A stretch of DNA of 24,168 nt from a virus. Below are positions 4,811 through 19,349 of the stretch, piece after piece. The stretch lies in IMG/VR virus record IMGVR_UViG_3300032093_000823, positions 1 to 24,168 of that record; one strand, given 5' to 3'. Both the position numbers and the translations under genes were made by a program. Below the pieces are notes generated by a model. It did no database searches. It had not been told where the DNA came from and saw only the letters and a list, made by a program, of their open reading frames with translations. How positions within the stretch are numbered: position 1 is the first letter of the stretch; each line of letters opens with the position of its first letter.

Positions 4811-5182
4811 TTATTTTATCTTCATAAGATCTAAAAATTGATCAAATGATAAGAGTCTTATTTTTTTCTTTTTCTTTCCACCAGGAATGTCTCCACTTCC
4901 GGTTGGCTGAGCGGCAAACGAATCAGCAGAGCCAGGATTTCCTGGAAACTCTACAGGACCCATTCCCTGTACATTCATATTAGGATTAAGAGTTACAGTT
5001 TCTTCGGCTACTTTATCAGGTAAACCTTCTTCTTTAGTTTCAGCGTAATCTCTTAAGTCTTTTTCTGGTAATTTAGACAATTCTTTTACCTCATCTGATG
5101 CTTCAGATGCAGAAAGCTCTCCTCTCTTATATAAAAGAGCGAGAGCAAAAAGTCTACGTTGTGCTTTACTCTGTGCGGGCAT
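4811..5182 (-). CDS. DUF3008-like small protein, 123 aa
   Basis: The N-terminal half matches, from memory, the DUF3008 pattern of short phage and bacterial proteins: MPAQSKAQRRLFALAL, then a helix with KRGEL, then LPEKDLRDYAETKEEGLPDKV at about residues 37-60. No biochemical role is known to me. The middle is Pro/Gly rich and disordered. The C-terminus has a run of five Lys followed by IRLLSFDQFLDLMKIK, which resembles the motif found at the N-termini of several neighbours (see findings), here at the opposite end. The start shares one base with the stop of the 448-aa gene (TAATG), indicating translational coupling with the nucleotidyltransferase. Confidence 0.65.
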   Translation of the reverse strand: MPAQSKAQRRLFALALLYKRGELSASEASDEVKELSKLPEKDLRDYAETKEEGLPDKVAEETVTLNPNMNVQGMGPVEFPGNPGSADSFAAQPTGSGDIPGGKKKKKIRLLSFDQFLDLMKIK

Positions 5183-5631
5183 TATTTAATATTATCTTTA
5201 AACCAACGATCTATCCAACCCTTAAGTTCTTTTTGTGCAGGTTTAATATCTCTAGGCTCAGTAGCAGGACCATTTTTCCATTGCTGCCAAATTTGTTCGA
5301 GTTCTCCTAATGCATTAGCCATACGGATAGAATCCATAACCTCAATATAGTCTTCATTAACAGACTCTTTCTTTTCATCATCTTTAGATAGTAATTCATA
5401 AACCTCGTTATCACCTGGTAATGAAATAAGACCTACTACATCCTTTCCCATTGCCTTCTGTTTGGCACCAATGGCATCAAACGTTGACAGAATAGCGTTA
5501 TAAGTTTCACCATTAACATCCATCTCTTTAAAGGTACCTTCTGATGTATCAACTTTAGGAGTTATTGGTTCTGTCATTTCCTCATCTTTTTCTCTTACAA
5601 GAAATTCATTAATTGATTTTAAGTTTTTCAT
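5182..5631 (-). other. Possible nested in-frame gene or fused module, 149 aa
   Basis: Met300 of the 448-aa protein lies in AACAAATG, the same context as several annotated starts (20712, 12052 and 10804 all have CAAATG). The following residues, MKNLKSINEFLVRE, nearly repeat the parent N-terminus MKNLKNIDTFLVE. Initiation here would yield a 149-aa protein with its own targeting motif and an acidic, helical body without recognised domains. Alternatively, two formerly separate genes have fused. The sequence alone does not decide between an internal start, proteolysis of a fusion and a relic. Confidence 0.4.
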
Positions 5632-6528
5632 TTGTTTACTTTCTTTTATTGGGTTTAATGTATCCTGTAGAGTTTTATAGAAATTATGAATACTCTTAGG
5701 TGTCATTTTCTTAAACGTGTTTTCATCATCTATTGTTAAAGCATTGCGAACTTTAGATGCTGAAATGTCATCATCGGTTCTACCTATTTCAAATCCAGTA
5801 AATTCAGGATCAACTCCAAGTTGCTCCCTGTAGTCTGGCTTATCAATCATTGCATCATATGCACGTTTTCTATCAGTACCATACCCCCACATAACAGGCT
5901 CATATGCAGGTCTTGCAGTTGCAAAGAGAGTATCGATTGCACCGTTAGGAACTACAAAAGCCGCCTCTAGGAACGGATATTGCTTAGTCATATCAGCAAA
6001 CATAGCCTGCTGTAATTCTTCACTAAATGGATTTTTTTCAGGATCAGGTTTACCACCTCTTACCAAGAATACCACAACAGGGTGGCCATTCTTTTTATAC
6101 ATTTGTTCAAATACTTTTACATGGCCTAACGTAAAAGGCTGAAAGCGACCAACAAAAATATTAACCTTCTTTTTACCTTGATCTTTATGAGGAACATTTA
6201 ATGCCTCAGTAATAGAAGTAACTTTAGTAGCCTTTCTAATTCTATTGCCAAATGGGGAAAGCGAGTATCTTTTAATCCCTTCCTGATCTTCACTAATATT
6301 GAATAAGTCAAGGTTTCTTTTTAGCCATCTTTTATTGGCATTAATCTCTGATAAGATTTTAACTAATTCTTCCTCTGTTAAATGACCATCCCCAATTGAA
6401 TCCAAAAGAACATTTCTTATCTTAGCTGAAGTAGAAACAAACTTAGCAGGATGATTCTCGGTGTATCTCCTTTTAACAGCAACTTTCTTTTCAACTAAAA
6501 AAGTATCAATATTTTTAAGATTTTTCAT
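5182..6528 (-). CDS. Nucleotidyltransferase with capsid-targeting-like N-terminus, 448 aa
   Basis: Residues 121-262 form a cytidylyltransferase/NMNAT-like Rossmann domain. GRFQPFTLGH at 127-136 is the (H/T)xGH nucleotide-binding signature, and ISASKVR at 255-261 is the ISxxxxR motif that contacts the triphosphate. The family moves a nucleotide onto a phosphorylated substrate (as in NAD, FAD or CDP-alcohol synthesis); the substrate here cannot be read from sequence. Residues 1-13 (MKNLKNIDTFLVE) resemble T4 capsid-targeting sequences. Residues 25-100 may form a small helical or winged-helix module. From Met300 to the end is a separate 149-residue region that opens with a second copy of the N-terminal motif (MKNLKSINEFLVRE). 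The gap to the 943-aa gene is 18 bases, and the stop overlaps the next start by one base. Confidence 0.8.
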   Translation of the reverse strand: MKNLKNIDTFLVEKKVAVKRRYTENHPAKFVSTSAKIRNVLLDSIGDGHLTEEELVKILSEINANKRWLKRNLDLFNISEDQEGIKRYSLSPFGNRIRKATKVTSITEALNVPHKDQGKKKVNIFVGRFQPFTLGHVKVFEQMYKKNGHPVVVFLVRGGKPDPEKNPFSEELQQAMFADMTKQYPFLEAAFVVPNGAIDTLFATARPAYEPVMWGYGTDRKRAYDAMIDKPDYREQLGVDPEFTGFEIGRTDDDISASKVRNALTIDDENTFKKMTPKSIHNFYKTLQDTLNPIKESKQMKNLKSINEFLVREKDEEMTEPITPKVDTSEGTFKEMDVNGETYNAILSTFDAIGAKQKAMGKDVVGLISLPGDNEVYELLSKDDEKKESVNEDYIEVMDSIRMANALGELEQIWQQWKNGPATEPRDIKPAQKELKGWIDRWFKDNIK

Positions 6529-6546
6529 CTAAGTGTCTTTTTTTAT

Positions 6547-9378
6547 TTATTTAAGAATTCTAATACCTATATTCGCATTAAAAGGATTAGGAATACTACC
6601 TTTTCTTTCAAACTTAAATTCTGCTGTTTTGAAAGGAACTGTCTTAAATCTAAATAGTCCACCTTTTACTAAAACATCCAGATAAAGCTGCTTAACGTCG
6701 GTTACCAATTGACCGTATTTAGTTAATTGCTTTTGAAACTTATTATTCAGCATTATTTCAATCTCAACCATAAGAGGGTAAAATATAAAGCCTATTCTAT
6801 TTTTATCAGATGCAGCCTTTTGCTTTACATATAAATCATATACCTTTTGTGCAGGGAGCTTAGATTGATCAACACCGGTCTTTGAATAAAATTCTGACAT
6901 TACTGTTTTGAATTCCTGTTCATCATTAGACAGATCATCCATATAAGTAATCAACATATCTTTGTATGCCGAATTTGGTTGTAAATTTGCTTTAGACAAA
7001 ATATACCAATACCCAGAATTACTGGTTGAACTTGGAATGTTAACACTGCATAAATTCATAACGTTATTGTAAATCATGCTATTATCAAGTTTTGGCGGGT
7101 TTACCCATTGCTTAACTACATTATTTAGAAAATCGATTTCAGGTTGAGTATCAAAATGAAGATGCCCAGAATTATACATAGAATACATCTTTTGTATTAT
7201 TGTATCACCACTTGGGGTACCACCGCTTCCTGCTTTAGAAGAAATGCTATAATCGTCAAAGAAAAAGTCTACTAACTTTTCATTAGATGCAGTAGGATAT
7301 CTTAATCCAGCCCCAGCATCCCTCAGTAGATTAAATAGCATAAAGCCACCTAAAATTTCACCATAGTCATTTTGGAAGTTATTAATTGAAATTGAATCTA
7401 TGCCATCAAAAAGAGAATCAGTTATATCATAGAATAAATACCCAGCTGATGCATTTGCATATGTTTCAAAATCAGAAAAAGAATTTGCATTTTTAGAATT
7501 TGTAATTAATTCTCTAGTTGATTCAATAATAAAATTCTTATAATTATCTGGGTATGATAATCTATTTACATAACTTTCTACTTTTGAAAATAAACTTTGT
7601 GCATCTTTATATTCGCTTGTAGGTAATCCCATTGCATCGGGTGTAAGATCTTTTTTACCAATCACTGCAGCTGTACCTGTGCTCTTTTCAATCTTTACCC
7701 GATTTGTTATGTAAAAGATATCCCCGTTTTTATAATTATCACCAAGATTATCTTTTATTGGATTAACGATTGTTATCGCATATGAATCATAGTCACTTGA
7801 AATTTTCCCACCTGCATTAGGAACATATGTACCAACCTTTATCTGTTCAATTGAATAGTCTGTTCTCTTTATTCCTAGTCCTTGTAATAAAAAGTTTTCA
7901 ATATTTTTTTCAGCGGTACCATCATTCATTCCAAAATCTGCTCTAAGTACTTCTCCACGTATTTTAGATTTAGGCTTAATCCAATTCGTGGACCCAGTAA
8001 ACCTTTCATATTTTTTAATCCATTCCTGCTGTCTTTTAGTTAAACCTGCAGCTTCTTCTAACTTATTTGAATATGGAATTTCAATTTTACCTAAATTAAT
8101 AAAGCCATTGTAATTCAATGTCTTTTCTTCAATAATTATATCCTCGGCAGTTTCATAAGACTCATTGGTCTTTTTAAGATTAAGATAATCACTAAATGTC
8201 TTAAACTTATCATCAACTGATTTGTTAATTGCATCTTCAATTTTTGTAACCAGTTCGTTAAAGTCTTCTACCACAGACGGTGTTAAAATATTACCTACCT
8301 TTTCAGGGTTTCTCTTTTTACGAAGAGATCCTAGCATAATCTTAAACAGGTCTTGCATAGTATCATTACCTTTAAGAATACTCTGCGTTGCTTGGCTAGG
8401 AATAAGATCAACATTTAATTTGAATTCATCACCTTTTGCAAATTCAGCTTTTTCTATTCCTAAGTCTTTAAGACCTTTGCCTCTCCTAGTTACATATTCA
8501 TTAAATATTGATGATATTAATTCTAGGTATCTTTCATCTGGTGTAGTACTCAATAGCTCACCACTCTTTAAACCTCTCTCCTCAATAAATGCAAGTATAT
8601 CAAGAAGAAGAATTTCATTAATATCGGCAGGCACCTTTTTAGGATCAATAGGTTCTTTATGCTTTAAGAGATTTGCCGTGTAAGGATCAATTAGCTTTGC
8701 AGAAATGGATTGTGTAGTACCTGGCTTATAAAACTTAAATATGATTGATTCAATTGGTTTAGTTAAATCATCCTGTAAGATTGTAGAACTTAGCTTTGGA
8801 TTAAGAATCTTAATTAGATATTCTGCAAATGAAGATGTTTTGAAAATTTCTAATTGGTCTTCAATTGGAGTACTAATAAAGTTTTTAATACTATCTTTTT
8901 GCTCGTCTGTTAAGTAACCTTTAAAGATAGGAAGTAAAGGAGTTACACCTAATGCATTTGACCAATCCTGAATAACTCTAGGATCTTCAATAATCTTAAT
9001 AAACTTGCCATTTTGATTCTTTACCTGAATATGGGTTAAGACCAGATTATTTTTAGGTAACTTATCATATTTAATTACACCAGGTTCATTATGAACAAAA
9101 TACTGAAAACAAAATCTCCAGTTCGCAGGTATAGAATCAATAAATGATAATGTAGTCTGCTTTATGTAGTTAATAGGATTTTCATAATAAACCATTAATG
9201 TTCTATCAACAAGGTTAATTGGCTTATCATTAGACTTAAAGAATTTTAGTGATGAACTAGACTTTTCAAACGAAAAAGCAGATCCTGATAACTTTTCAGT
9301 TACTACAAGATAGTCTTTAGCGAGATCATTAATAAAATCTTGGCCTAACTCTTTATAAATTCTAGCTAATTCTTTCAT
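6547..9378 (-). CDS. Large protein with N-terminal ligase-like nucleotidyltransferase domain, 943 aa
   Basis: The N-terminal 230 residues carry spaced motifs of the covalent nucleotidyltransferase (RNA/DNA ligase, capping enzyme) fold. EKLSG at 28-32 would be motif I with Lys29 as nucleotide acceptor, though Ser replaces the usual Asp/Asn of KxDG. LKFFKSND at 44-51 follows; FQYFVHNEPGVIKYD at 91-105 resembles motif IIIa; IESIIFKF at 209-216 is motif IV-like; AKLIDP at 227-232 is motif V-like with Lys228. Residues 250-943 are not recognised: helical and Lys/Glu-rich to about 460, then mixed alpha/beta, with no membrane segment. The start context is A-rich without SD. A TATATAAA box lies 22 bases upstream of the ATG, and the gene heads a unit after a terminator-like hairpin. 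The ligase-like call is moderate because motif I is non-canonical; activity could be lost. Confidence 0.6.
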   Translation of the reverse strand: MKELARIYKELGQDFINDLAKDYLVVTEKLSGSAFSFEKSSSSLKFFKSNDKPINLVDRTLMVYYENPINYIKQTTLSFIDSIPANWRFCFQYFVHNEPGVIKYDKLPKNNLVLTHIQVKNQNGKFIKIIEDPRVIQDWSNALGVTPLLPIFKGYLTDEQKDSIKNFISTPIEDQLEIFKTSSFAEYLIKILNPKLSSTILQDDLTKPIESIIFKFYKPGTTQSISAKLIDPYTANLLKHKEPIDPKKVPADINEILLLDILAFIEERGLKSGELLSTTPDERYLELISSIFNEYVTRRGKGLKDLGIEKAEFAKGDEFKLNVDLIPSQATQSILKGNDTMQDLFKIMLGSLRKKRNPEKVGNILTPSVVEDFNELVTKIEDAINKSVDDKFKTFSDYLNLKKTNESYETAEDIIIEEKTLNYNGFINLGKIEIPYSNKLEEAAGLTKRQQEWIKKYERFTGSTNWIKPKSKIRGEVLRADFGMNDGTAEKNIENFLLQGLGIKRTDYSIEQIKVGTYVPNAGGKISSDYDSYAITIVNPIKDNLGDNYKNGDIFYITNRVKIEKSTGTAAVIGKKDLTPDAMGLPTSEYKDAQSLFSKVESYVNRLSYPDNYKNFIIESTRELITNSKNANSFSDFETYANASAGYLFYDITDSLFDGIDSISINNFQNDYGEILGGFMLFNLLRDAGAGLRYPTASNEKLVDFFFDDYSISSKAGSGGTPSGDTIIQKMYSMYNSGHLHFDTQPEIDFLNNVVKQWVNPPKLDNSMIYNNVMNLCSVNIPSSTSNSGYWYILSKANLQPNSAYKDMLITYMDDLSNDEQEFKTVMSEFYSKTGVDQSKLPAQKVYDLYVKQKAASDKNRIGFIFYPLMVEIEIMLNNKFQKQLTKYGQLVTDVKQLYLDVLVKGGLFRFKTVPFKTAEFKFERKGSIPNPFNANIGIRILK

Positions 9379-9400
9379 TTAATTTATTTTTGTATTACCT

Positions 9401-9408
9401 TTTATATA
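9401..9408 (-). promoter_or_regulatory. TATATAAA promoter-like box before the 943-aa gene
   Basis: The minus strand reads GAATATATAAAAGG, 22 bases upstream of the ATG at 9378, inside the 154-base gap that also holds two hairpins. Related boxes occur before the 412-aa gene and the gp32-like gene. There is no convincing -35 element, as in T4 late promoters. Confidence 0.4.
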
Positions 9409-9435
9409 TTCGGTAGAAATTACTACAAACAACAA

Positions 9436-9464
9436 GAGTGAGACGATAGCTCACCCATTATCGT
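9436..9464 (-). other. Two mutually exclusive RNA hairpins in intergenic gap
   Basis: On the minus strand, ACGATA (9459-9464) can pair with TATCGT (9443-9448), while GGGTGAG (9450-9456) can pair with CTCACTC (9436-9442, one G-U). The arms interleave with no base between the third and fourth arms, so both stems cannot form together. The second hairpin is followed by TTGTTGTTTG and could act as a weak terminator. A switch or attenuator is possible but only inferred. Confidence 0.35.
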
Positions 9465-9483
9465 TATTGAATTTATTGAAAAC

Positions 9484-9511
9484 AGTTACCTATTAACTAA
9501 AATAGATAACT
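9484..9511 (-). terminator. Terminator-like hairpin after the 423-aa gene
   Basis: On the minus strand AGTTATCTATT (9501-9511), a 6-base loop TTAGTT, and AATAGGTAACT (9484-9494) form an 11-pair stem with one G-U pair. The stem begins 21 bases past the TAA of the 423-aa gene and is followed by GTTTTCAATAAA. The stem is AT-rich and the U run short (four), so termination may be partial. It is the longest perfect-type inverted repeat I found in a gene gap. Confidence 0.6.
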
Positions 9512-9532
9512 CACTGGATGTAAGATCTGGTA

Positions 9533-10804
9533 TTATCTACCGTACTTAATTATTCCAAGTAATTGGTTAAGTGCAGCAAAGGTTCCGGTTAACTTGTAAA
9601 GTTTTCCGTTATATCTGAAAACAATTCCTTCCGTTGGAAAAATTGAATTTATTCCTCCAATTCTGTCAAGTCTAGCCAACTCATCTTCAACCTTTCTGAT
9701 TTGATCAGCCCCACCAGTTTTTCTAATCTTATCGGCCTCGGCTTGCAAATATGCGCGAAGTCTGGCAGTTTCGCCGGTTGGATCTGCTGCTAAGAAATTG
9801 CTGGCATTACTTAATATAACCGAACCTAGCTCAAGGAATAGATCTTCAAACGGTCTAATATTTTCTTTGTACTTTTTCTTTACGTCTTCCTTATCAAATT
9901 TCTTAATCTTGGCAGATTCATCAGGACTTAAAACCTTATCAAGAGATCTCATATTTAATGTATTCTTATCATCATACGCCCATCTTCTTAAAAGACCTTC
10001 CTTAACGTCTTGTGGAGCATTTGGAAATTCCTTATCAATAAGTTCTCTCCACCACATTTCATGATATCTTGATACCTCATCACCGTCATTAAGACCGTAT
10101 CTCTTTTGAAGTTCAATTACTTTATTAATAAACTTTTGCTTGTTTTGGCTAAAGTCCATATCCTGTTGTAATTGAATTATTCTAGGTGGAATAATCTTAA
10201 AGGTCTTTCCTAAATCTGCTTGTACTTTAGATAGGATTGCAGGAATTTCTTTAGCAGGGCGAGCATCAGTACCTATTACATTACCATTACCATCTGTTTT
10301 AGTTATATTATGAAATTGGATAACATCAGTATCATAATTAATAACATTAGGATTTCTTGAATAGATAAGTTCCATATTCATAAAGTTCTTACCGTTATCA
10401 AATGTATCTTGTTGAACTTTAGGAGGTAATTTAATTAAAAGATCTGCAAGGTCTTGTGCGGCATACTGAAAAGTATCTCTAACTGTTGCGCTTGGATGAT
10501 CCTGGAACTTTTGCTTAAAATCAGAAAGAGACATTGGAGAAATGCTTTCTCCTTTATTTCTTGCAAATTTTACCTGACCGTCCTGAATAGTAGCCCATAC
10601 GTTTTGGCCATCGGTCTTTTCAGTAGGATCTTCTTCAAAGTTTAATTCTCCGCGAAGACCAGCATCAATAATACTTTTAAAGTCACCAAAGGTTAATCCT
10701 TTATCGTCAAAAGGATGATTCATGTGGCCAGCAGCGCCACCTTCTAAAAGTAATGGCTGGCTTTTATCGGCCAGCCATTGTTCAAATAGTTTAATATATT
10801 TCAT
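9533..10804 (-). CDS. Polynucleotide ligase/capping-type nucleotidyltransferase, 423 aa
   Basis: All diagnostic motifs of the covalent nucleotidyltransferase superfamily appear in order. KTDG at 63-66 is motif I (Lys63 as AMP/GMP acceptor), FARNKGE at 80-86 follows, MNMELIYSRNP at 142-152 is motif IIIa-like with Glu145, EGIVFR at 392-397 is motif IV, and YKLTG at 403-407 is motif V with Lys404. About 180 residues (210-385), largely helical, separate motifs III and IV, an unusually long insertion. The likely reaction is ATP-dependent nucleic-acid ligation; RNA versus DNA cannot be told. The N-terminus MKYIKLFEQWLAD followed by LLLE-GGAAGH (cut after Glu21) matches the T4 prohead protease pattern (I/L)xE before a small residue, and the conserved fold appears to begin right after it. 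The start lies 9 bases after the stop of the 412-aa gene. Confidence 0.75.
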   Translation of the reverse strand: MKYIKLFEQWLADKSQPLLLEGGAAGHMNHPFDDKGLTFGDFKSIIDAGLRGELNFEEDPTEKTDGQNVWATIQDGQVKFARNKGESISPMSLSDFKQKFQDHPSATVRDTFQYAAQDLADLLIKLPPKVQQDTFDNGKNFMNMELIYSRNPNVINYDTDVIQFHNITKTDGNGNVIGTDARPAKEIPAILSKVQADLGKTFKIIPPRIIQLQQDMDFSQNKQKFINKVIELQKRYGLNDGDEVSRYHEMWWRELIDKEFPNAPQDVKEGLLRRWAYDDKNTLNMRSLDKVLSPDESAKIKKFDKEDVKKKYKENIRPFEDLFLELGSVILSNASNFLAADPTGETARLRAYLQAEADKIRKTGGADQIRKVEDELARLDRIGGINSIFPTEGIVFRYNGKLYKLTGTFAALNQLLGIIKYGR

Positions 10805-10813
10805 TTGTAGAAA

Positions 10814-12052
10814 TTACTTTCCCATAGTAGCTTGTAAAGCTCCAACCATTGCGCCGTAGTCACCTTTATACTTAGAGGTTAAACCATCAATAACTTCTTT
10901 GGCTTTTGCTTCATCAAACTTATCACCATGAGCAGACTTTAATAATTCAGTTGCATATTCTGCAAACTCGGTGTCAGACTTAATTTCCTTTTCGGAAATC
11001 TTGCCTTCTTTTACAACAACAGTACCTTGTACAGCAGGTTCATCCTTTGCAGTAGCAGGTTCTTCAGTAACCTTTTGATCTTTAGTTACTAATTCTTCGC
11101 CTTCTTTTTCATCCTTTTCTTCAGGTTCTCCTAACTTTACAATTTCGTCAGAAACGGCTGCAGCTGTTTTAGGACCATCACCCTTTGCGATAGGAAGAGC
11201 AATTCCATTTTGATCAGGAGTTTCTTCCTTTAATTCTGGGCCGTTATCGGCTTCTTCAGAAAGATATGATTCAGAAACAAATTGAGAGAATGATCTAATA
11301 CTTGAAACGGTACGAGATACCTTTTCTTCAATCTCTTCTTTCTTTTCTTCTTCTTCTTCTTCATTAGCATAGGAATCAGCTACAGGAACTGCATTATCTT
11401 CGTCTTCTTCTTCGTCATCCTGATAACTAACATTCTTATTAACAGTAACCTCTTCTTCTTTTACGAAATCTTCAAAGGTCATTATTCTACGTTTAGCTAC
11501 TGGCTTCTCTTCGGCTTCTTCCTCTACCTCTTCACCAGACTCTTCATCATCACCTTCAGCAGGTACCTCAGCAGTAACCTCTTGATCTTTAGTTACAACT
11601 TCTTCGCCTTCTTTTTCTTCTTTTTCTTCAGGTTCTCCTAAATCAACGATACTATCTTCAATTTCTTTAGATACATCTTCAGTCTTTTCAGTTTCTTCCT
11701 TTTCTTCAGTCTCTTCTTCAGTCTCTTCAGCAACCTCAGTTGTTGTACTTCCTACTTCCTTATCTTCCTCTTTTTCACCGTCCTTATCTTCCAAGGATTT
11801 AGGCTCACCAAGATCTTTGATTTCATCTTCAATATCTTCGGCATCATCTTCACTAACATCCTGTTTAGGATTAAATTCTTTTAGTAAAGCTTCTAATTTA
11901 GAAAGAAGTGCTTTTTCTTTTTTGATTTCATCAATATTATTATAACCTAGCTTTTGAACTAATTCTGCTAAAGCTTCTGGGCTAAGGTTTGCTGACTCCA
12001 AAATAGATAAACTACCATTAGAGGCGGCCGAAAACTTTTTAATAGGCTTCAT
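10814..12052 (-). CDS. Highly acidic repeat protein, probable prohead core or internal protein, 412 aa
   Basis: Residues about 66-345 are dominated by Glu, Asp and Lys and are probably disordered. A module beginning LGEP recurs three times (about 80-100, 137-160 and 306-330), the last two reading LGEPEEKxEKEGEE plus VTKDQ. Motifs resembling capsid-targeting sequences occur at 190-200 (IMTFEDFVKEE) and 252-261 (IRSFSQFVSE), and SILE-SANL at 17-23 near the N-terminus fits a prohead-protease site. The C-terminal 60 residues (from about 352) form an ordinary helical domain. Length, acidity and repeated cleavage-like sites recall T4 core proteins such as gp67 and gp22, but no homology is claimed. 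It lies 9 bases before the ligase-like gene and has a TATATAAA box 25 bases upstream. The hypothetical status is certain; the core role is inferred. Confidence 0.6.
   Translation of the reverse strand: MKPIKKFSAASNGSLSILESANLSPEALAELVQKLGYNNIDEIKKEKALLSKLEALLKEFNPKQDVSEDDAEDIEDEIKDLGEPKSLEDKDGEKEEDKEVGSTTTEVAEETEEETEEKEETEKTEDVSKEIEDSIVDLGEPEEKEEKEGEEVVTKDQEVTAEVPAEGDDEESGEEVEEEAEEKPVAKRRIMTFEDFVKEEEVTVNKNVSYQDDEEEDEDNAVPVADSYANEEEEEEKKEEIEEKVSRTVSSIRSFSQFVSESYLSEEADNGPELKEETPDQNGIALPIAKGDGPKTAAAVSDEIVKLGEPEEKDEKEGEELVTKDQKVTEEPATAKDEPAVQGTVVVKEGKISEKEIKSDTEFAEYATELLKSAHGDKFDEAKAKEVIDGLTSKYKGDYGAMVGALQATMGK
11069..11134 (-). repeat. 66-base direct repeat, copy near 3' end of the acidic gene
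   Basis: This stretch and 11576-11641 are near-identical 66-base copies in the same frame of the 412-aa gene, encoding LGEPEEKxEKEGEE and the VTKDQ segment. The differences are scattered single bases, several of them silent, indicating an internal duplication kept under protein-level constraint. Confidence 0.8.
11576..11641 (-). repeat. 66-base direct repeat, copy near middle of the acidic gene
   Basis: This is the partner of the copy at 11069-11134, about 507 bases away. A third, more diverged protein-level copy (LGEPKSLEDKDGE) lies upstream at about residues 81-93. Confidence 0.8.
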
Positions 12053-12077
12053 TTGTATTTGATTTTTTTATTCTTTT

Positions 12078-12085
12078 TTTATATA
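12078..12085 (-). promoter_or_regulatory. TATATAAA promoter-like box before the acidic gene
   Basis: The minus strand reads GGATATATAAAAAAAG, 25 bases upstream of the ATG at 12052, in the 61-base gap after the UvsW-like gene. Position and core match the box before the 943-aa gene. Confidence 0.4.
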
Positions 12086-12113
12086 TCCATGACATTAGAG
12101 AAAGATATTACAT

Positions 12114-13616
12114 TTAGAATTTGATGGACTGTACATCAAACGGAAATTTCTCCTCTTTATATATTTTTCTCCGTTCCATACCATGTCGGTAGATATAGTT
12201 CATCCAATCATGATCCTCTGTTTTATAACGAATATCGTCAATAAAATCGTATATCTTAACAATATCCTTGGATGCGTGTAAACGAAGACCGCGGCCGATT
12301 GATTGGCGGATAATTACTTCTGACTTAAATGATTCGGTAAAAAATATGTTATGTATGTTTTTAATTGAGATACCGGTAGAAAAGGTGCCATAAGAGGCCA
12401 CGATAATTACATCATCGTTCTTTTCCATTCTTGCTTTAAAGTCTTCCCTAACATCTGCATTAACAGACCCATCAACATAGTAGATCTTTTTATCGGTTAT
12501 CTGTCTAAGCTTTTGGTAGATCTTTTCACCGTATGCAATTTTATGAAAAAGTACCAGAGAATTTGAGGTAGACTTTTTAATTACGTTACAAATAAAGTCT
12601 AACCGTTTTTCACTTTCGTTGATAAAGTTTTGTTCTAATGAAAACAGCTTTTGACGATCATAAGGATTCTTTGATAAACTAGAGAATGCTTCTCTTTGTG
12701 CTTCGGTTGCATATTCCATTAGGATCTGTAATACTTTACATTTTGCAATATGTCCTTCGTCTTGTAAGTAATTTGCTTTTACCTGAGTTACTAAAGGTCC
12801 CATAGCCGACATAAGACTTAAACGATCAACGGATCCTCTTTTAGGAATTGTTCCACTTAATCCGAAGCGATAATCGCAATGCCAACATTTATCCATAATT
12901 TGTTGAATTGATGTTGCCTTTGCCTTATGAGTCTCATCTACAAATACAGCATCAAATTGAGTAAAGTAATCCTCTTCATATTTGACAAGTGATTGGTATG
13001 TTCCAATAACAATGTTAGAACTTTTTCTAAGTTTTACACCTGCATAAATTTGTTGGATCCTAATAGGAACACGGCTTTTATTATATTGTTCAAAATCTCC
13101 AGTTGCCTGAACAACTAAACTTACATTAGGAACGATCATTAGGATTTTCTTTTTTCCTAATTGTTCCATCATATAAGCCACTACCATAAATGATATTAAA
13201 GTTTTACCGGCAGATGTTGCTAATTCAGCAAGGCACCTTCTATACTTTAATATTTTGAATGCTGCATCAATTTGATAATCTCTAGGCTTAATATCAGAAT
13301 CCTTAAAGAAATCATCTACCCATGTAGTAAAAGTTTCTATAGTTATAGATTGATCAAATATATTAGTAACCCCATTTAACGAAAGTGGAAGATTGTATTC
13401 TTTACATATATCAATAACTTCCTTCCATAAACCGCCGGGTATCTTATTCTTTTTAATAAATGATATGTTGCCATCCCACAACTTCTTTTTAACGAGCGGG
13501 TGAAAGCGCCAGCCATCAATCTTTTTTGTAAGACTACTTTTTAGCTGTTCATATTCCAATTCGGTACATGAATCAATTACTAAAAACTTTTTATTATCTG
13601 ATAGAGATAGTTCCAT
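12114..13616 (-). CDS. uvsW: UvsW-like superfamily 2 helicase, 500 aa
   Basis: A T4 UvsW-type ATP-dependent helicase, expected to unwind branched DNA and R-loops and drive replication-fork regression and the change from origin- to recombination-dependent replication. The N-terminal module (1-100) has GWRFHPLVKKKLWDGNISF, the typical UvsW substrate-binding start. Helicase motifs: RDYQIDA at 112-118, Walker A ATSAGKT at 133-139, DETH at 227-230 (motif II), SGTIPK at 254-259 (motif III), and in the C-terminal RecA lobe ASYGTFSTGI (motif V) and QSIGRGLR (motif VI). The length is close to T4 UvsW (about 500). Its ATG shares one base with the stop of the UvsY-like gene (TAATG), so the two are probably translationally coupled; uvsW and uvsY are also near neighbours in T4. 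Confidence 0.93.
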   Translation of the reverse strand: MELSLSDNKKFLVIDSCTELEYEQLKSSLTKKIDGWRFHPLVKKKLWDGNISFIKKNKIPGGLWKEVIDICKEYNLPLSLNGVTNIFDQSITIETFTTWVDDFFKDSDIKPRDYQIDAAFKILKYRRCLAELATSAGKTLISFMVVAYMMEQLGKKKILMIVPNVSLVVQATGDFEQYNKSRVPIRIQQIYAGVKLRKSSNIVIGTYQSLVKYEEDYFTQFDAVFVDETHKAKATSIQQIMDKCWHCDYRFGLSGTIPKRGSVDRLSLMSAMGPLVTQVKANYLQDEGHIAKCKVLQILMEYATEAQREAFSSLSKNPYDRQKLFSLEQNFINESEKRLDFICNVIKKSTSNSLVLFHKIAYGEKIYQKLRQITDKKIYYVDGSVNADVREDFKARMEKNDDVIIVASYGTFSTGISIKNIHNIFFTESFKSEVIIRQSIGRGLRLHASKDIVKIYDFIDDIRYKTEDHDWMNYIYRHGMERRKIYKEEKFPFDVQSIKF

Positions 13617-14062
13617 TATTGTTCATCATCGAGTCTTATGCGATTACGGATTGCAAAAGCTAGGTTATCCAAGGTTTTAATACATTCTTGGTAATAATCC
13701 ACATGCGATTGCAACATGTCTATTTGTGTTCTTAATGAACCTAAATCTGCTTTAATAAATTGATGTTTTTCGCCGCTCGTTAATTTAACATCATAGTTTA
13801 AAGTATATTCACGATACTGTGCACGATAGTATCTTTCCCAGGTTGCATTTCTCTTATATATCATTGTCTTAAAATCAGTAACCTTATCTAAAAGAATTTG
13901 TCTATATGAAAGCATACTTACCTGACAATCAGAAAGTTCATTCATATTTTTAATTTTAAGAACTAGATCATTTATCTTGGTTTTCCATTCTGTTCTGTCG
14001 CTCGTTAGTCTTAATTCGAGTTCCTCGTTTGCCTGCTTTATTTGTGTGTCATCAAATGCCAT
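13616..14062 (-). CDS. uvsY: UvsY-like recombination mediator, 148 aa
   Basis: The product is all-helical and coiled-coil prone, of similar size to T4 UvsY (137 aa). UvsY loads the UvsX recombinase onto ssDNA coated by gp32. The C-terminal segment VDYYQECIKTLDNLAFAIRN (121-140) resembles the C-terminal helix of T4 UvsY, which carries a similar aromatic start and AI-x-x-R pattern (compared from memory). The middle has RYYRAQYREYTLNY, rich in Arg and Tyr and plausible for ssDNA contact. Context is the strongest support: it lies directly before the UvsW-like gene and in one cassette with the gp32-like and primase genes. Both ends overlap neighbours as TAATG. Sequence similarity is weak, so confidence is moderate to good. 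Confidence 0.7.
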   Translation of the reverse strand: MAFDDTQIKQANEELELRLTSDRTEWKTKINDLVLKIKNMNELSDCQVSMLSYRQILLDKVTDFKTMIYKRNATWERYYRAQYREYTLNYDVKLTSGEKHQFIKADLGSLRTQIDMLQSHVDYYQECIKTLDNLAFAIRNRIRLDDEQ

Positions 14063-14283
14063 TAGAATATTCCTTTATCGTTATTTGTATGTTTAACAAC
14101 CTTTATTTTAGGTTGAAATTTTTTCTTAGGTTCATTAACCTTGATGTCCTTTCTTTCATGAGAAAGTTTACTTTTAGTAAACGAAGTAAATAGCTTAATT
14201 CGTTTTTGACTATCTTCATAGTCCTCATAAAAATCTTCTATCTGCTCGTTCACAAACGATTCATATTTTTTTATCTCAATCAT
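14062..14283 (-). CDS. 73-aa protein with capsid-targeting-like N-terminus
   Basis: The protein is not a recognised family. It begins MIEIKKYESFVNE, resembling the T4 internal-protein targeting sequence with a Glu at the expected cleavage point. After that come an acidic patch (EDFYEDYEDS) and a strongly basic remainder (Lys-rich, KSKLSHERKD and PKKKFQPKIKVVKH). Cleavage would leave about 60 residues, comparable in size and basicity to mature T4 IPI. It overlaps the primase stop by four bases (ATGA) and the UvsY-like start by one base. Its place inside a replication operon is odd for a virion protein; a DNA-binding accessory role in replication is the alternative. Confidence 0.6.
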   Translation of the reverse strand: MIEIKKYESFVNEQIEDFYEDYEDSQKRIKLFTSFTKSKLSHERKDIKVNEPKKKFQPKIKVVKHTNNDKGIF

Positions 14284-15350
14284 ATAAAAATAATATCTAA
14301 ATGATTGTTTGTAAAATATCTATCAATGCTCTTTAAGCACCCAGTTCGATGTTCATATTCATATTTTACCAAATCATTTAAGTCTTTTACTTTTTTAACC
14401 GGTATGGAATAATCCTTAAGAAATTTATCCCACATAAATACAGTTTGACCAGATTTAAGTTTTTCAATCATTCTAGTTTTTCCTTCAATATCATTATCAA
14501 AGAAATACCTTGCTGTTGGAATTTCATTAAATTCTAGGATCTGTTTTTTAACACCAGTTAGGCCAATTGAATTAGTCATAAACATTGCATCAATAGGCCC
14601 TTCAAAGATTGTAAAGTCTCTACTTAAATCAGCTGATAAAATTCCAAATAACATTGATATCTTATTAAGATTATCAAGATCTTCTTCTGATACTGTCAAC
14701 GGTTTCTTTAACCTATCATAAATCCGTTGAATATTCCACGTTTTATATTTAGGACCAGTGCCTTCTAAATCGCGAGTTTGAAACCCGACTACCTTACCAT
14801 TTGGTGTAAGATTAAAAACATAAAGTTCTTTTCTACGCGGGTCATAACCAAATTGATTCGTTTTATGTTGTAGCAATCTACTCTTAAGATAAGGGTATGC
14901 CCTGTATGTTAATGAATTAATTGGATAGACATTAAAGCCTACTGCCAATTCATCAAATGTTAACGCCAATTCCTTTATCTTATCAAATAAGTAAAAATCA
15001 AGCGATTCACCTAAAGAAAACGATTTCTTATTTTCTTTAATATAGTTAAGTACCTCAACACGGTCTTCACCTTCAAAGTTAGAATTAAAGTCTTTAAGAA
15101 AAATATCTAGAGAAACGTGAGCAGAACAATTATAACAGTGAACAAAGAGATCATTCCAATACAAGTTACCCCTCTTTTTATTAGGGCTTGTTGTTGAATC
15201 TCCACAATAAGGGCATGCAAAATTTAACCGATCCCGCCCTTCAAGTATTCTTCTTTTTTCAGGATGAGAATGGCTATTATGAAGAACTCGGACTATCTTA
15301 TCGATAATCCGAGTCTTCATGTCAGAAGATATCATAACTTCTGTAGCCAT
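14280..15350 (-). CDS. DNA primase, T4 gp61-like, 356 aa
   Basis: The enzyme would synthesise RNA primers on the lagging strand with the replicative helicase. The N-terminal zinc-binding domain has CPYCGDSTTS at 46-55 and HCYNC at 71-75, giving four Cys ligands (46, 49, 72, 75). The TOPRIM catalytic core is visible as FEGPIDAMF at 249-257 (acidic Glu250), FFDND at 283-287, and KDLNDLV at 322-328. The length is close to T4 gp61 (about 342). It starts 4 bases after the gp32-like stop and ends overlapping the 73-aa gene by four bases, so it is part of the replication cassette. Lack of a Walker ATPase shows the helicase is a separate gene, as in T4 and unlike T7. Confidence 0.9.
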   Translation of the reverse strand: MATEVMISSDMKTRIIDKIVRVLHNSHSHPEKRRILEGRDRLNFACPYCGDSTTSPNKKRGNLYWNDLFVHCYNCSAHVSLDIFLKDFNSNFEGEDRVEVLNYIKENKKSFSLGESLDFYLFDKIKELALTFDELAVGFNVYPINSLTYRAYPYLKSRLLQHKTNQFGYDPRRKELYVFNLTPNGKVVGFQTRDLEGTGPKYKTWNIQRIYDRLKKPLTVSEEDLDNLNKISMLFGILSADLSRDFTIFEGPIDAMFMTNSIGLTGVKKQILEFNEIPTARYFFDNDIEGKTRMIEKLKSGQTVFMWDKFLKDYSIPVKKVKDLNDLVKYEYEHRTGCLKSIDRYFTNNHLDIIFI

Positions 15351-15354
15351 AGGA

Positions 15355-16269
15355 TTAGAGATCTAATCCGTTAATGAAATCATCAAAGTCTTCACCGCCT
15401 TCAGATGTTGGTACTTCATCAGTATCAAAATTCTCTTGAGCAGTTTCTACCTTAGGGGCAGGTTTAGGTGCAGCTTTAGGTGCAGCCTTAGAACCTGAAG
15501 TAAGAGTATCAATCGAAGAACCTGGTGAAGAATACTGAGAAATTACATTCATTACTTTATTTCTCTGTTCATCGTTCCATGATTTATAATCAAAGTTAGC
15601 AAGATCAGGAGCATCTTTAAGATAATCCAAAATCATTTTGCGACCTTCATTAGTATCGGTTACATTTTCACCATTAATGGTCATAGCAGAACGAGAACCT
15701 TGGAATTTACATGAATCGTAATTAGGATAACCACCTTTCTTAGAAAGAACTAATTCAAAGTTTTTACCTTCAAACGGATCAAATACTTGAGTAGGTTCAT
15801 CAAATTGTGGATTTAGTTCTTCATCAATTTTAGCCTTAATCTTATATCCAAATTTGAATACTTTGATTTGACCTTCAAGATCACGATTTTGTGGATCTTT
15901 TACGATTTGAACAAGTGCATAGAATACCTCCCTGCGCTTTAAACTTTCGGACATCTTTTTATCTACAGCGGATTCACTGTTACGAAGCTTAAAGAACATA
16001 TCCTGTACTGGACATTTCTCGCCTACAGTAGATGGAGAATCTGCATAGAAACCATTTCCGTCTCGGTCTTCTAACCAATAAACGAATTTGCGAACGAAAG
16101 GTTTGCGGGGATTTTTAATATTAGGTAAGAACCTAAGTAGAGAACGGTATGTACCGTCTTGCCCTTGATCGGGCTTTGGGGAATAAAGATCGCTGCCTCC
16201 GCCTGAAGGGCGATCTCCTGTGTCGAGGTCGTTAACACTCACACTGAAAATGTCGAATTCATTTGCCAT
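15355..16269 (-). CDS. Single-stranded DNA-binding protein, T4 gp32-like, 304 aa
   Basis: Coats ssDNA during replication and recombination and organises the UvsX/UvsY machinery. Length matches T4 gp32 (301 aa). The core contains YRSLLRFLPN at 41-50, KFVYWLEDRDGNGFY at 61-75, CPVQDMFFKL at 86-95 and QIKVFKFGYKIKAKI at 134-148, a pattern typical of the gp32 OB fold. Then comes an Ala/Pro/Lys linker (PKAAPKPAPK) and an acidic C-terminal tail (EDFDDFINGLDL), the usual site for partner proteins. Unlike T4 gp32 there is no zinc site: only Cys86 and Cys187 and no His are present. A 172-base leader with repeated CTTAAAAA-type elements precedes it and may mediate autoregulation. The primase gene follows after 4 bases. 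Confidence 0.88.
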   Translation of the reverse strand: MANEFDIFSVSVNDLDTGDRPSGGGSDLYSPKPDQGQDGTYRSLLRFLPNIKNPRKPFVRKFVYWLEDRDGNGFYADSPSTVGEKCPVQDMFFKLRNSESAVDKKMSESLKRREVFYALVQIVKDPQNRDLEGQIKVFKFGYKIKAKIDEELNPQFDEPTQVFDPFEGKNFELVLSKKGGYPNYDSCKFQGSRSAMTINGENVTDTNEGRKMILDYLKDAPDLANFDYKSWNDEQRNKVMNVISQYSSPGSSIDTLTSGSKAAPKAAPKPAPKVETAQENFDTDEVPTSEGGEDFDDFINGLDL

Positions 16270-16441
16270 TTTAGTTGCCTTTTTTTAAGTTTTGTTTTTA
16301 AGTTAATTAAAAGCATAACTTAGCATTGCCTATTTACGTGCCCGGGATTGCCAATAAAAACTCTGCCTTGTTAATGCCAGTTACAAATTCCCTGATAAAT
16401 CAGTTCCTTTGTTATTTATATATTCACAACGGTACTTAGTT
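16270..16441 (-). promoter_or_regulatory. Leader of gp32-like gene, candidate autogenous operator
   Basis: This 172-base gap is the longest non-coding stretch in the window. Just before the ATG the minus strand carries two exact copies of AACTTAAAAA (16295-16304 and 16282-16291) 13 bases apart, then AAAGG, then 9 bases to ATG. AAGTTA and TAACTT arms around 16301-16322 can form a small hairpin, and CTGATTTATCAG around 16392-16403 a second. T4 gene 32 mRNA is repressed by its own product through a folded element plus unstructured repeats near the start site. The layout here is similar, but no pseudoknot could be established. Confidence 0.45.
16415..16422 (-). promoter_or_regulatory. TATATAAA/TATAAATA promoter-like box upstream of gp32-like gene
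   Basis: The minus strand reads GAATATATAAATAAC, containing both TATATAAA and an exact TATAAATA (16413-16420). It lies about 145 bases before the gp32-like ATG, so a transcript from here would carry most of the leader. The GAATATATAAA core equals that before the 943-aa gene. Confidence 0.45.
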
Positions 16442-16729
16442 TCAGAGAATGTTTAGATTTTTATCAATAAGTATTCCTACTACATCAATGTCTCTAATAC
16501 TAAATACTTTTTCATCATTAACTGTAAATTCAGTACCAGCCAGATCATGAAAAAGAATTCTGCAGCCAACCTGGATATCTTCATCGGTAACATCAGGTCC
16601 TACCGATATGACAGTTCCTGAATAAGGTGGAGCATGCTGCCCTTCCAATTTAGGTACATAAATTAGACCTATCTTTTCAGGATATTCATCTTTTTTAAGA
16701 AATATTCTATTTTTTATCGCGTTTATCAT
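16442..16729 (-). CDS. GroES-like co-chaperonin, 95 aa
   Basis: Cpn10-fold protein with the size of bacterial GroES (about 97 aa). Visible features are IKNRIFLKKDEYPEKIG at 5-21 (the first strand and the region before the mobile loop), GLIYVPKLEGQHAPPYSGTV at about 21-40 (mobile loop and the start of the barrel), ISVGPDVTDEDIQVGCRILF at 41-60, and GTEFTVNDEKVFSIRDIDVVG near the C-terminus, matching the family's V-x-x-G and (I)RE-DI(L/V) endings. In T4-like phages the analogue gp31 adapts host GroEL to fold the major capsid protein. It lies 172 bases before the gp32-like gene and 66 bases after the resolvase, with AT-rich flanks (minus TTTTATATATAGAG at about 16757-16770) that could hold its own promoter. 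Confidence 0.88.
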   Translation of the reverse strand: MINAIKNRIFLKKDEYPEKIGLIYVPKLEGQHAPPYSGTVISVGPDVTDEDIQVGCRILFHDLAGTEFTVNDEKVFSIRDIDVVGILIDKNLNIL

Positions 16730-16795
16730 ATGAATCTGAAACTAAGTTAAAAACTCTATATATAAAATTTATCTGATTAGTTGAAAGAATAGTAT

Positions 16796-17452
16796 TTATT
16801 TACTAGTGGTTTGAGAGTTAAGGATGAAGTATGCATCTACAAGGTCATCGAGTGGTTTTGGAATTTTTTGACTGTAATCTTTTCCTTGTACATATTTCCA
16901 TAATTTTGTATTTCTTAGATCTTTATCATTAAGGACATCATCCTGGAATGCTTTAATCATAAAATGTTTATTTGCATTTCCTTTACCTGCTAACTTCTTT
17001 ACATGCGAAGGCTGAAAAATTGATATCTTTTCAGATCCATAAGTATTTAGTAAAGCTGCTCTTAGGAATGAATTGTATTGTACAATGTCAATAAAAGAAT
17101 TCCCAGTTGAACCATAAGAGAATCCCTCTAGTGATACATGAGTATCATCAGTTCCAAAAAATGTTATAAGAGAATTTGAAATAAGGTCTGCGATAGATTT
17201 ACAGTCTTCAAGCTTTTCCCTTTCCCTGACGAGAAATGAATCTGCCATAACGTTACGAAAATAAGGAAATCCTAAAATTGTTCTATCATCAATTAGTTCT
17301 TTATGAACCTCAAATGCCTTTGGCATTTTTTTAGTATCATCCCAGATACGGTCTCCAAAATTAAAAAATGAAATGAAGACATATTTGCCTTCATGATTCT
17401 TTATACATACAGCTGGACTATTCAGCGAAAAATCAATACCTATTCTTAGCAC
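16796..17452 (-). CDS. RuvC-like Holliday-junction resolvase, 218 aa
   Basis: RNase H-fold nuclease of the RuvC type. The four acidic positions are in place: GIDFS with Asp7 at the end of the first strand, SLEGFSYG with Glu109, and DDLVDAYF with Asp203 and Asp206 on the last helix. FQPSHVKKLAGKGNANK at 146-162 matches the RuvC segment before the final helix. The role would be cutting branched DNA before packaging, the job of gp49 (endonuclease VII) in T4. The start is GTG: Asp7 needs this N-terminus and an in-frame stop lies a few codons upstream. Residues 30-90 are longer than in E. coli RuvC. It lies 11 bases after the 117-aa gene and 66 bases before the co-chaperonin gene. Confidence 0.8.
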   Translation of the reverse strand: MLRIGIDFSLNSPAVCIKNHEGKYVFISFFNFGDRIWDDTKKMPKAFEVHKELIDDRTILGFPYFRNVMADSFLVREREKLEDCKSIADLISNSLITFFGTDDTHVSLEGFSYGSTGNSFIDIVQYNSFLRAALLNTYGSEKISIFQPSHVKKLAGKGNANKHFMIKAFQDDVLNDKDLRNTKLWKYVQGKDYSQKIPKPLDDLVDAYFILNSQTTSK

Positions 17453-17463
17453 AAAAATTTAGA

Positions 17464-17817
17464 TTAGAGTCTCTTACCTAATACTGCACCTAATGCAGCA
17501 CCAACAAGTCGACTAGTTAATAGATCATAAAGAGCGCCTTTTTCAATTCCTAAGACTTTACAAATGGCTTCACCAATACTTTTACCTAACGCAAAACCAG
17601 TAAGACCCCCAAAGATTGATCCTAAGATCCCTTCGTTGACAATCTCTTCAACAATTTCGTCAAGATTTTGTCCATTGTTATGGGCGTCTACAATTCTTTG
17701 TACTGCTTCATCAATAGCTGCATTCTGTTCTTCTGATAATTCTGATTCATTTAAGACCTTTAATAGATCATCAGTATCAGCCTTGGATTCAATTATGTAG
17801 TCTTTAAAGGTTTTCAT
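17464..17817 (-). CDS. 117-aa protein with targeting-like N-terminus and glycine-zipper C-terminus
   Basis: The N-terminus MKTFKDYIIE is strikingly close to the T4 IPIII capsid-targeting sequence (MKTYQEFIAE, from memory), with IIE-S as a fitting prohead-protease site. Residues 15-62 are acidic and helical. Residues 64-117 are a glycine-zipper region (GSIFGGLTGFALGKSIG, then VGAALGAVLGKRL), hydrophobic enough to insert into or associate with membranes. There is no signal peptide. A capsid-internal protein that meets the cell membrane on DNA entry is an attractive inference; a membrane-associated lysis or superinfection protein is the alternative. It follows the tail-tube-like gene by 22 bases and precedes the resolvase by 11. 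Confidence 0.6.
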   Translation of the reverse strand: MKTFKDYIIESKADTDDLLKVLNESELSEEQNAAIDEAVQRIVDAHNNGQNLDEIVEEIVNEGILGSIFGGLTGFALGKSIGEAICKVLGIEKGALYDLLTSRLVGAALGAVLGKRL

Positions 17818-18404: not shown

Positions 18405-19349
18405 TTATTGAATACTGTTTGCACCGCTTGTAAAACCGTTTGCACCGCTTGTAAAACCGTTTCCGCCCCCTGTAAAACCACCTAAGCCGCTTAATCCAGA
18501 TGTTACTTGATTAACACCGGGTATTGTCTTAATTAATTGTTTAGCTGCTTGTGTAAAAAATGCCTTTTGCTTAGCAGCAGTTGAAGCAGTTTCTTTTACT
18601 TTATTAATTGACTCAATCTGTTGTCTTTGATATTTTACAAGTTCCTCTGCCTGCTGAGCGGCAGTAGCCTGAGATAATAAAGCCTCGGCTGTAGCTGATC
18701 CTAATTTTTCACTCAATGTAGCAACTTCATTTGAAAGATTTTGATTACTTTCTTTAAGAGAGCCAATTACAACGGTTTGCTCATTTATTAATTGATCTTT
18801 TTGTTGTATGTCAGCTGTCAATTTTTCAACTTGACTTTGTAAGGATGCAATTTCTTTTGAATATTGTAACCTAGCTTCTTCTAATTGAGTACTCAAAGAA
18901 ACCTTAGGTTCTTCTGTAAATGACAAGAATGTTCCTGTGTATAAAACCGATTCATCAGATTCTCCACTAGGATCAACCATTTTAGTTGAGATATAAAAGT
19001 TTCTGTTATCTAAAGCAAGAATTTTTTTGGCATCATCACTGTCTATTCTAAAAAGAACTTGACCTGACGCCATATCAACATTTTGAACATTTGTATAATT
19101 AGGAATTCTAATTTCATCCTTCTCTCCAATGAATACCATATAAAGAGTACCTACATTACTAAGATCAATCGGAGTATTAACGCCATCAGTTTCATCAAAG
19201 ATTGTAAAAATAAAATAGTCGTCAAATGGCGATATCTTAATTGTACCTTCACCCTGTGATTTAGGTTCTTCGTTTACTGAAAGATTGACAAACCTCTTAT
19301 AAACCTGAGTCTCTTTCTCCGATAATGGTATTTCTGTATTAACTGCCAT
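18405..19349 (-). CDS. Beta-domain plus coiled-coil structural protein, 314 aa
   Basis: Not a named family that I can recognise. Residues 1-150 look like an all-beta domain (IKISPFDDYFIFTIFDE at 37-53, TLYMVFIGEKDEIRI at 68-82, FYISTKMVDPSGESDESVLY at 118-137), comparable in layout to the N-terminal domains of baseplate upper proteins (BppU type). Residues about 153-260 are a long coiled coil with heptad spacing (LEEARLQYSKEIASLQSQVE, then further Gln/Leu/Glu heptads). The C-terminus is Gly/Asn/Ser-rich with a tandem GFTSGAN repeat. A trimeric connector or tape-like stalk in the baseplate is plausible. It starts 1 base after the 453-aa stop and ends 10 bases before the tail-tube-like gene. 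Confidence 0.65.
   Translation of the reverse strand: MAVNTEIPLSEKETQVYKRFVNLSVNEEPKSQGEGTIKISPFDDYFIFTIFDETDGVNTPIDLSNVGTLYMVFIGEKDEIRIPNYTNVQNVDMASGQVLFRIDSDDAKKILALDNRNFYISTKMVDPSGESDESVLYTGTFLSFTEEPKVSLSTQLEEARLQYSKEIASLQSQVEKLTADIQQKDQLINEQTVVIGSLKESNQNLSNEVATLSEKLGSATAEALLSQATAAQQAEELVKYQRQQIESINKVKETASTAAKQKAFFTQAAKQLIKTIPGVNQVTSGLSGLGGFTGGGNGFTSGANGFTSGANSIQ
18418..18480 (-). repeat. 21-base tandem repeat, two exact copies and one diverged
   Basis: Exact copies at 18418-18438 and 18439-18459 (plus strand tttgcaccgcttgtaaaaccg), with a diverged third at 18460-18480, encode the GFTSGAN repeats at the C-terminus of the 314-aa protein. The exact identity implies a recent duplication. Confidence 0.85.

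Follow-up and report, generated by a model that had tools for sequence, protein, structure and literature searches.

A putative capsid-targeting tag on unrelated proteins of a T4-superfamily phage shares its core with the scaffold repeats of related phages

Why should several proteins of one phage, with nothing else in common, begin with the same short motif? The question is raised by a stretch of 24,168 bases (the window), which is an entire IMG/VR record and a fragment of a phage of the T4 superfamily. All of its genes, as given by a simple gene caller, lie on the minus strand, to which the feature coordinates below refer. They include a UvsW-type helicase, a UvsY-like protein, a primase, a gp32-like protein, a RuvC-like protein and tail genes. 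A long collagen-like Gly-x-y protein of tail-fibre type occupies positions 3-2366, and the long open frames on the opposite strand there are spurious. An earlier note had proposed, from the letters alone, that the motif is a tag comparable to the leader of T4 internal proteins and that it sends enzymes into the prohead. We consider it highly probable that the motif is indeed a capsid-targeting sequence of the T4 kind, used here on a large set of cargo proteins.

The motif opens four proteins of 448 aa (MKNLKNIDTFLVE, 6490..6528), 423 aa (MKYIKLFEQWLAD, 10766..10804), 73 aa (MIEIKKYESFVNE, 14245..14283) and 117 aa (MKTFKDYIIE, 17788..17817), as had been reported, except that the last residue of the 423-aa tag is Asp and not Glu. 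The capsid-targeting sequence of the T4 internal proteins IPI-III (and Alt) and the protease gp21 were described by Mullaney and Black 1996 (reviewed in PMC9026906); in this leader, residues 4 and 7 serve targeting and residues 8 and 10 processing (PMC9026906). The 117-aa tag has F4, Y7, I8 and E10 at these positions and compares well with T4 MKTYQEFIAE, and the other three tags have the same spacing. Shuffling of N-termini gave an expectation of 0.10 genes for the relaxed motif and 0.05 for the strict one, against four and three observed, and neither count was reached in any of 20,000 shuffles of the window's 21 minus-strand genes. Searched as a positive control, T4 gave matches to the core in IPII, IPIII and the small gp61.1; elsewhere in T4 the core matched FGSFLTE, the gp23 maturation site, whose last residue is 65. 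The start of gp61.1 (18966-19130, 54 aa), MKTFKEFIKE, itself closely resembles the T4 targeting sequence.

The tags are kept in homologues. For the 423-aa ligase-like protein, 80 IMG/VR loci and other fetched loci were reduced to 55 distinct sequences, 51 of which carry a recognisable tag within their first 24 residues; of the remaining four, three have a start that was placed too far upstream, so that the tag lies within the called protein, and one is a fusion. The letters of this tag vary widely (MKIYNNFEQFVTE, MKTKILNFNQFLTE, MKLLLSYSDFLVE, MKFLKSYEEFLNE), while its aromatic, hydrophobic and acidic positions stay and the linker between tag and enzyme changes in length. The tag is retained in 36/43 members of the 117-aa family and in 29/33 distinct homologues of the 73-aa protein. 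An alignment of 26 sequences of the 117-aa tag has K2, T3 and E10 invariant and F4 and Y7 nearly so, and these conserved positions agree with the T4 mutational data (PMC9026906). By the same criterion, neighbouring genes used as controls were never tagged (0/54 for a 943-aa protein, 0/44 for UvsY). The gene for the 943-aa protein (6547-9378) starts with a nucleotidyltransferase-like part (EKLSG), and its homologue in the phage LR756500 is fused to an NMNAT domain.

Two of the tagged proteins had been taken for a nucleotidyltransferase and a ligase-like enzyme. The 448-aa protein (5182..6528) matches PF01467 in Pfam (E=3.8e-8) and a cytidyltransferase in PHROGs, and it has the cytidylyltransferase-type motif GxFxPxxxGH (GRFQPFTLGH) together with a C-terminal motif of the ISxxxxR type (ISASKVR). 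These are motifs of NadM-like NMN adenylyltransferases, and we regard the protein as a putative enzyme of this kind. A second tag, MKNLKSINEFLVREKDEE, lies inside it at residues 300-317 (5578..5631). Its position is conserved; homologues read NEFINE, NEFVLNE or DFSINE, but the window copy has its Glu displaced by one residue. MKNLKS(I/L)NEF follows the adenylyltransferase domain in almost every close homologue, and the C-terminal bodies beyond it differ among phages, with total lengths of 312-522 aa, so that the layout of the family looks like tag, enzyme, tag and second cargo.

The 423-aa protein (9533..10804) received no name from sequence searches of Pfam, PHROGs or the PDB. Its alignment, however, contains the invariant motifs of a ligase, with motif I KxDG (EKTDG in the window) and later EGxV and KL, and a fold search listed RNA ligases first at modest scores, the best being T4 Rnl1 (E=1.9e-3, prob 0.93, low TM-score). 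In the model (pLDDT 74.7) the first 27 residues have low confidence and the tag and linker are unpacked. Throughout the window clade the tag of this enzyme ends in Asp and is followed by an invariant LxE-GG (LLLE-GG in the window, 10736..10753), the Glu of which lies eight residues downstream of the Asp-ended tag. A T4 leader with Asp at position 10 allows targeting while blocking cutting (PMC9026906), and LxE-GG may be the cut site in these proteins. The E-G-G is also kept in a fusion protein of the Microcystis phage Mel-JY01, so it may serve the enzyme instead. Since that fusion joins a nucleotidyltransferase-like domain (GRFQP motif) and the ligase-like protein in a single polypeptide, it supports a joint role for the two enzymes. 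A search for isolates close to the window's cargo returned only uncultured huge phages, Mel-JY01 and a Stenotrophomonas phage.

The motif had also been seen away from N-termini. The acidic 412-aa protein has two internal tags kept in homologues, MTFEDFVKEE (11453..11482; core FEDFVKE, residues 193-199) and IRSFSQFVSE (11270..11299; core FSQFVSE, residues 255-261). At the C-terminus of the 123-aa protein the aromatic and hydrophobic part of the motif is present, at a conserved position, and the Glu is not: a lysine run and the tag-like end LLSFDQFLDLM (4814..4876) follow a DUF3008 domain and a segment (4883..4996) that reproduces the arm found at the N-terminus of the mature major capsid protein, with 26/38 residues identical to the capsid protein of the relative G001 (L096:511-2439). 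From this order of parts we infer a head protein that borrows the capsid arm to sit against the shell. The arm copy and the lysine run behind it are shared by DUF3008 proteins of this group. In some relatives the tag retains its Met and further protein follows it; in some there are just arm, lysines and tag (73-80 aa). C-terminal tags as a general feature were rejected, there being no enrichment in relatives, and are retained for the 123-aa family only. The 117-aa protein (17464-17817) ends in an invariant, glycine-rich, hydrophobic and membrane-active-looking segment behind an invariant N-E-G, and the corresponding VNE-GILGSI (17614..17640; E62-G63 invariant) is a possible further cut site. 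The observation of a recurring motif is thus confirmed, although of three copies one has another residue in place of the Glu, one has it displaced and one lacks it.

The scan for further tagged genes that the earlier note had suggested was run on related genomes, namely nearly complete ones of 130-200 kb and the greater part of a huge phage of 462 kb, and found up to about 20 per genome. The strict motif stands at the N-termini of 17, 9, 6 and 5 genes in four relatives (G003, G004, G002 and G001), with 0.09-0.27 expected, and in LR756500 the tag core is on 20 genes against 1.9 expected. The proteins had been described as otherwise unrelated, and the 85 tagged proteins from nine genome sets indeed fall into 59 unrelated body families, 45 of which have a single member; bodies that could be named include ATP-grasp enzymes, a DUF2201 metallopeptidase with a VWA-like domain, a leucine-rich-repeat protein and DUF5824. 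At least 120 stretches in IMG/VR matched a degenerate DNA pattern written for the tag, and none matched the same residues in scrambled order. No excess of tags was found in HTVC008M, RM378, Mel-JY01 or part of a Lak phage. One of the matches in Syn9 is the start of MazG, and Syn9 was therefore not counted as a positive.

A tag of this kind calls for a gp21-like prohead protease, for which the earlier note had proposed to look. The 24,168-base window, a fragment, has no gene for a prohead protease or a scaffold, but a gp21-type protease (S77, PF03420) is present in 7/24 relatives searched, mostly the longest contigs, and in 15/19 contigs of at least 100 kb selected for the tag pattern alone; the other four are not decisive because the contigs are fragments. 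In one relative (G006) the portal and protease are flanked by tagged genes. On most of the protease-bearing contigs the protease and the scaffold form one open frame of about 525-750 codons (for example L095:18182-19903 and L146:11346-13265, and on L371 and L372), unlike in T4. A search for the protease-scaffold in plasmids gave nothing relevant. The end of the scaffold part resembles T4 gp22 by eye, and its middle consists of successive units, for example YSEYLAE and YTEHVAE. The core of these repeats, (Y/F)-x-x-(Y/F/H)-(L/I/V)-x-E, is the core of the cargo tag. Nineteen fused frames, three of them near-identical, have 5-14 copies against 0.05-0.14 by shuffling, spaced mostly by multiples of seven residues; there are 0-1 in two frames truncated at contig ends and three in LR756500, and a further frame was not recovered.

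The motif could also be read as a cleavage site and nothing else. It would then be recognised by the prohead protease only, entry into the head would depend on other parts of the proteins, and the tag would resemble the scaffold repeat through a shared cutting specificity. The tag, the scaffold repeats and the T4 gp23 site do all end in hydrophobic-x-E. However, no aromatic pair is present in HNLNE and HKLYE, the cut sites in the capsid proteins of these phages, so the pair is dispensable for cutting and better explained by docking; the two aromatic positions carry targeting in T4 (PMC9026906), and the window's ligase clade keeps them even though its tag ends in Asp. We thus think it unlikely that the motif is a protease site alone. 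Another explanation, that the tag is an amphipathic helix for turnover or for a destination unrelated to the head, such as the membrane or a replication compartment, would suit its short, amphipathic and N-terminal character. It is very improbable given that the tag matches the scaffold repeats, co-occurs with the S77 protease and finds internal proteins in the T4 control, that tagged genes lie in the head cluster and that the DUF3008 tag is joined to a copy of the capsid arm. Finally, tagged genes are often adjacent to one another, as would be expected if the shared start were a by-product at the DNA level (from a promoter, a recombination element or the recent duplication of genes), an origin that the codon and body-family tests rule out, leaving it scarcely any probability: where two tags have a residue in common, they use the same codon for it at about the rate expected from codon usage, the 30 bases upstream of tagged genes are close to background, the bodies belong to 59 families, and the tags diverge while keeping their core as the linker length changes. 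The level of codon sharing indicates that the tag is selected as protein, and is neither a DNA element nor a recent copy.

Returning to targeting, sequence and co-occurrence support the packaging interpretation of the earlier note, and the tagged window proteins are probably packaged in the phage head and passed on to the cell together with the DNA. We infer docking, cutting, packaging and injection as follows. The prohead would be built around a scaffold that has a chain of repeats in its middle and is made as one protein with a gp21-type protease. Cargo bearing one repeat unit, usually at its N-terminus, would join the core like a piece of scaffold and be enclosed once capsid protein covers the core. 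The protease would then cut scaffold and cargo alike after the Glu of (L/I/V)-x-E; the scaffold would be degraded, and the freed cargo would stay with the DNA and enter the next cell with it. Tags inside proteins would serve, between domains, as additional sites for docking or cutting.

What the two enzymes would do in the host can be suggested with little confidence. T4 Rnl1 repairs tRNA cut by a host nuclease. The rebuilding of NAD is a known phage counter-defence (PMC12774641). The likeliest use of the pair may be early counter-defence, with the NMNAT restoring NAD and the RNA ligase mending cut RNA, and one may speculate that delivery in the head would place both at the earliest moment of infection. 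The fullest version of this reading, on which we find the balance even, is that the tag is one unit of the scaffold's heptad repeat and a general loading code, placed at protein starts and between domains, by which the head would be stocked with up to about 20 unrelated proteins (NMNAT and RNA-ligase-like enzymes among them) for an initial attack on host defences. The T4 targeting leader binds the prohead core according to reviews, which give no account of how; a scaffold of visible repeats identical to the tag core opens such binding to a direct test. The tag can also serve annotation: from sequence alone it predicts that dozens of uncharacterised proteins of uncultured phages are packaged in virions, and many of these proteins may act on the host as soon as infection begins.

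A search for earlier descriptions of large tag sets in jumbo phages and cyanophages, with subscription papers outside its reach, returned only work on T4, P1 and SPN3US. Phages of the SPN3US/phiKZ type likewise eject many head-internal proteins, some with propeptides cut after Glu, but those propeptides are mostly far longer, the motif is AXE and no short common tag is reported (PMC5694885). In P1, an N-terminal leader of DarB sends a reporter into the capsid; that leader, however, has more than 9 and up to 30 residues, the Dar proteins lack a consensus and there is no separate scaffold (PMC9024508). The isolate PAU, a Sphingomonas phage, has T4-type head genes and a common N-terminal tag ending in LxE: an unbiased search for N-terminal patterns found MKT(L/I)xxL(Y/F)E on 18 genes, where column shuffles gave no more than 5. 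The 18 genes include the scaffolding gp152 and both annotated internal capsid proteins, gp142 and gp154. Its capsid protein is shortened from 585 to 520 residues according to N-terminal sequencing (PMC5646251), a loss that agrees to within one residue with a cut after LME-64. The PAU portal (L171:10796, residue 562) and protease (L171:13908, residue 235) have a tag-like SKxLYESIKxK end. PAU differs in that its tag is MKTLxxLYE and that protease and scaffold are separate genes. With T4 the likeness extends to the short N-terminal leader, K2, the aromatics three residues apart and the hydrophobic-x-E end, together with the S77 protease in the relatives. In T4, however, few genes are tagged, compared with up to about 20 per genome here, where the cargo includes predicted enzymes, tags also occur within proteins, and protease and scaffold are one protein. 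The tag is the scaffold repeat here, whereas a strict copy of the core is absent from T4 gp22, and copying of a scaffold repeat is thus not general. T4 is the precedent for this kind of tag; what is new is how large the tagged set is, that it includes predicted enzymes, that tags also lie inside proteins and that the tag matches the scaffold repeat.
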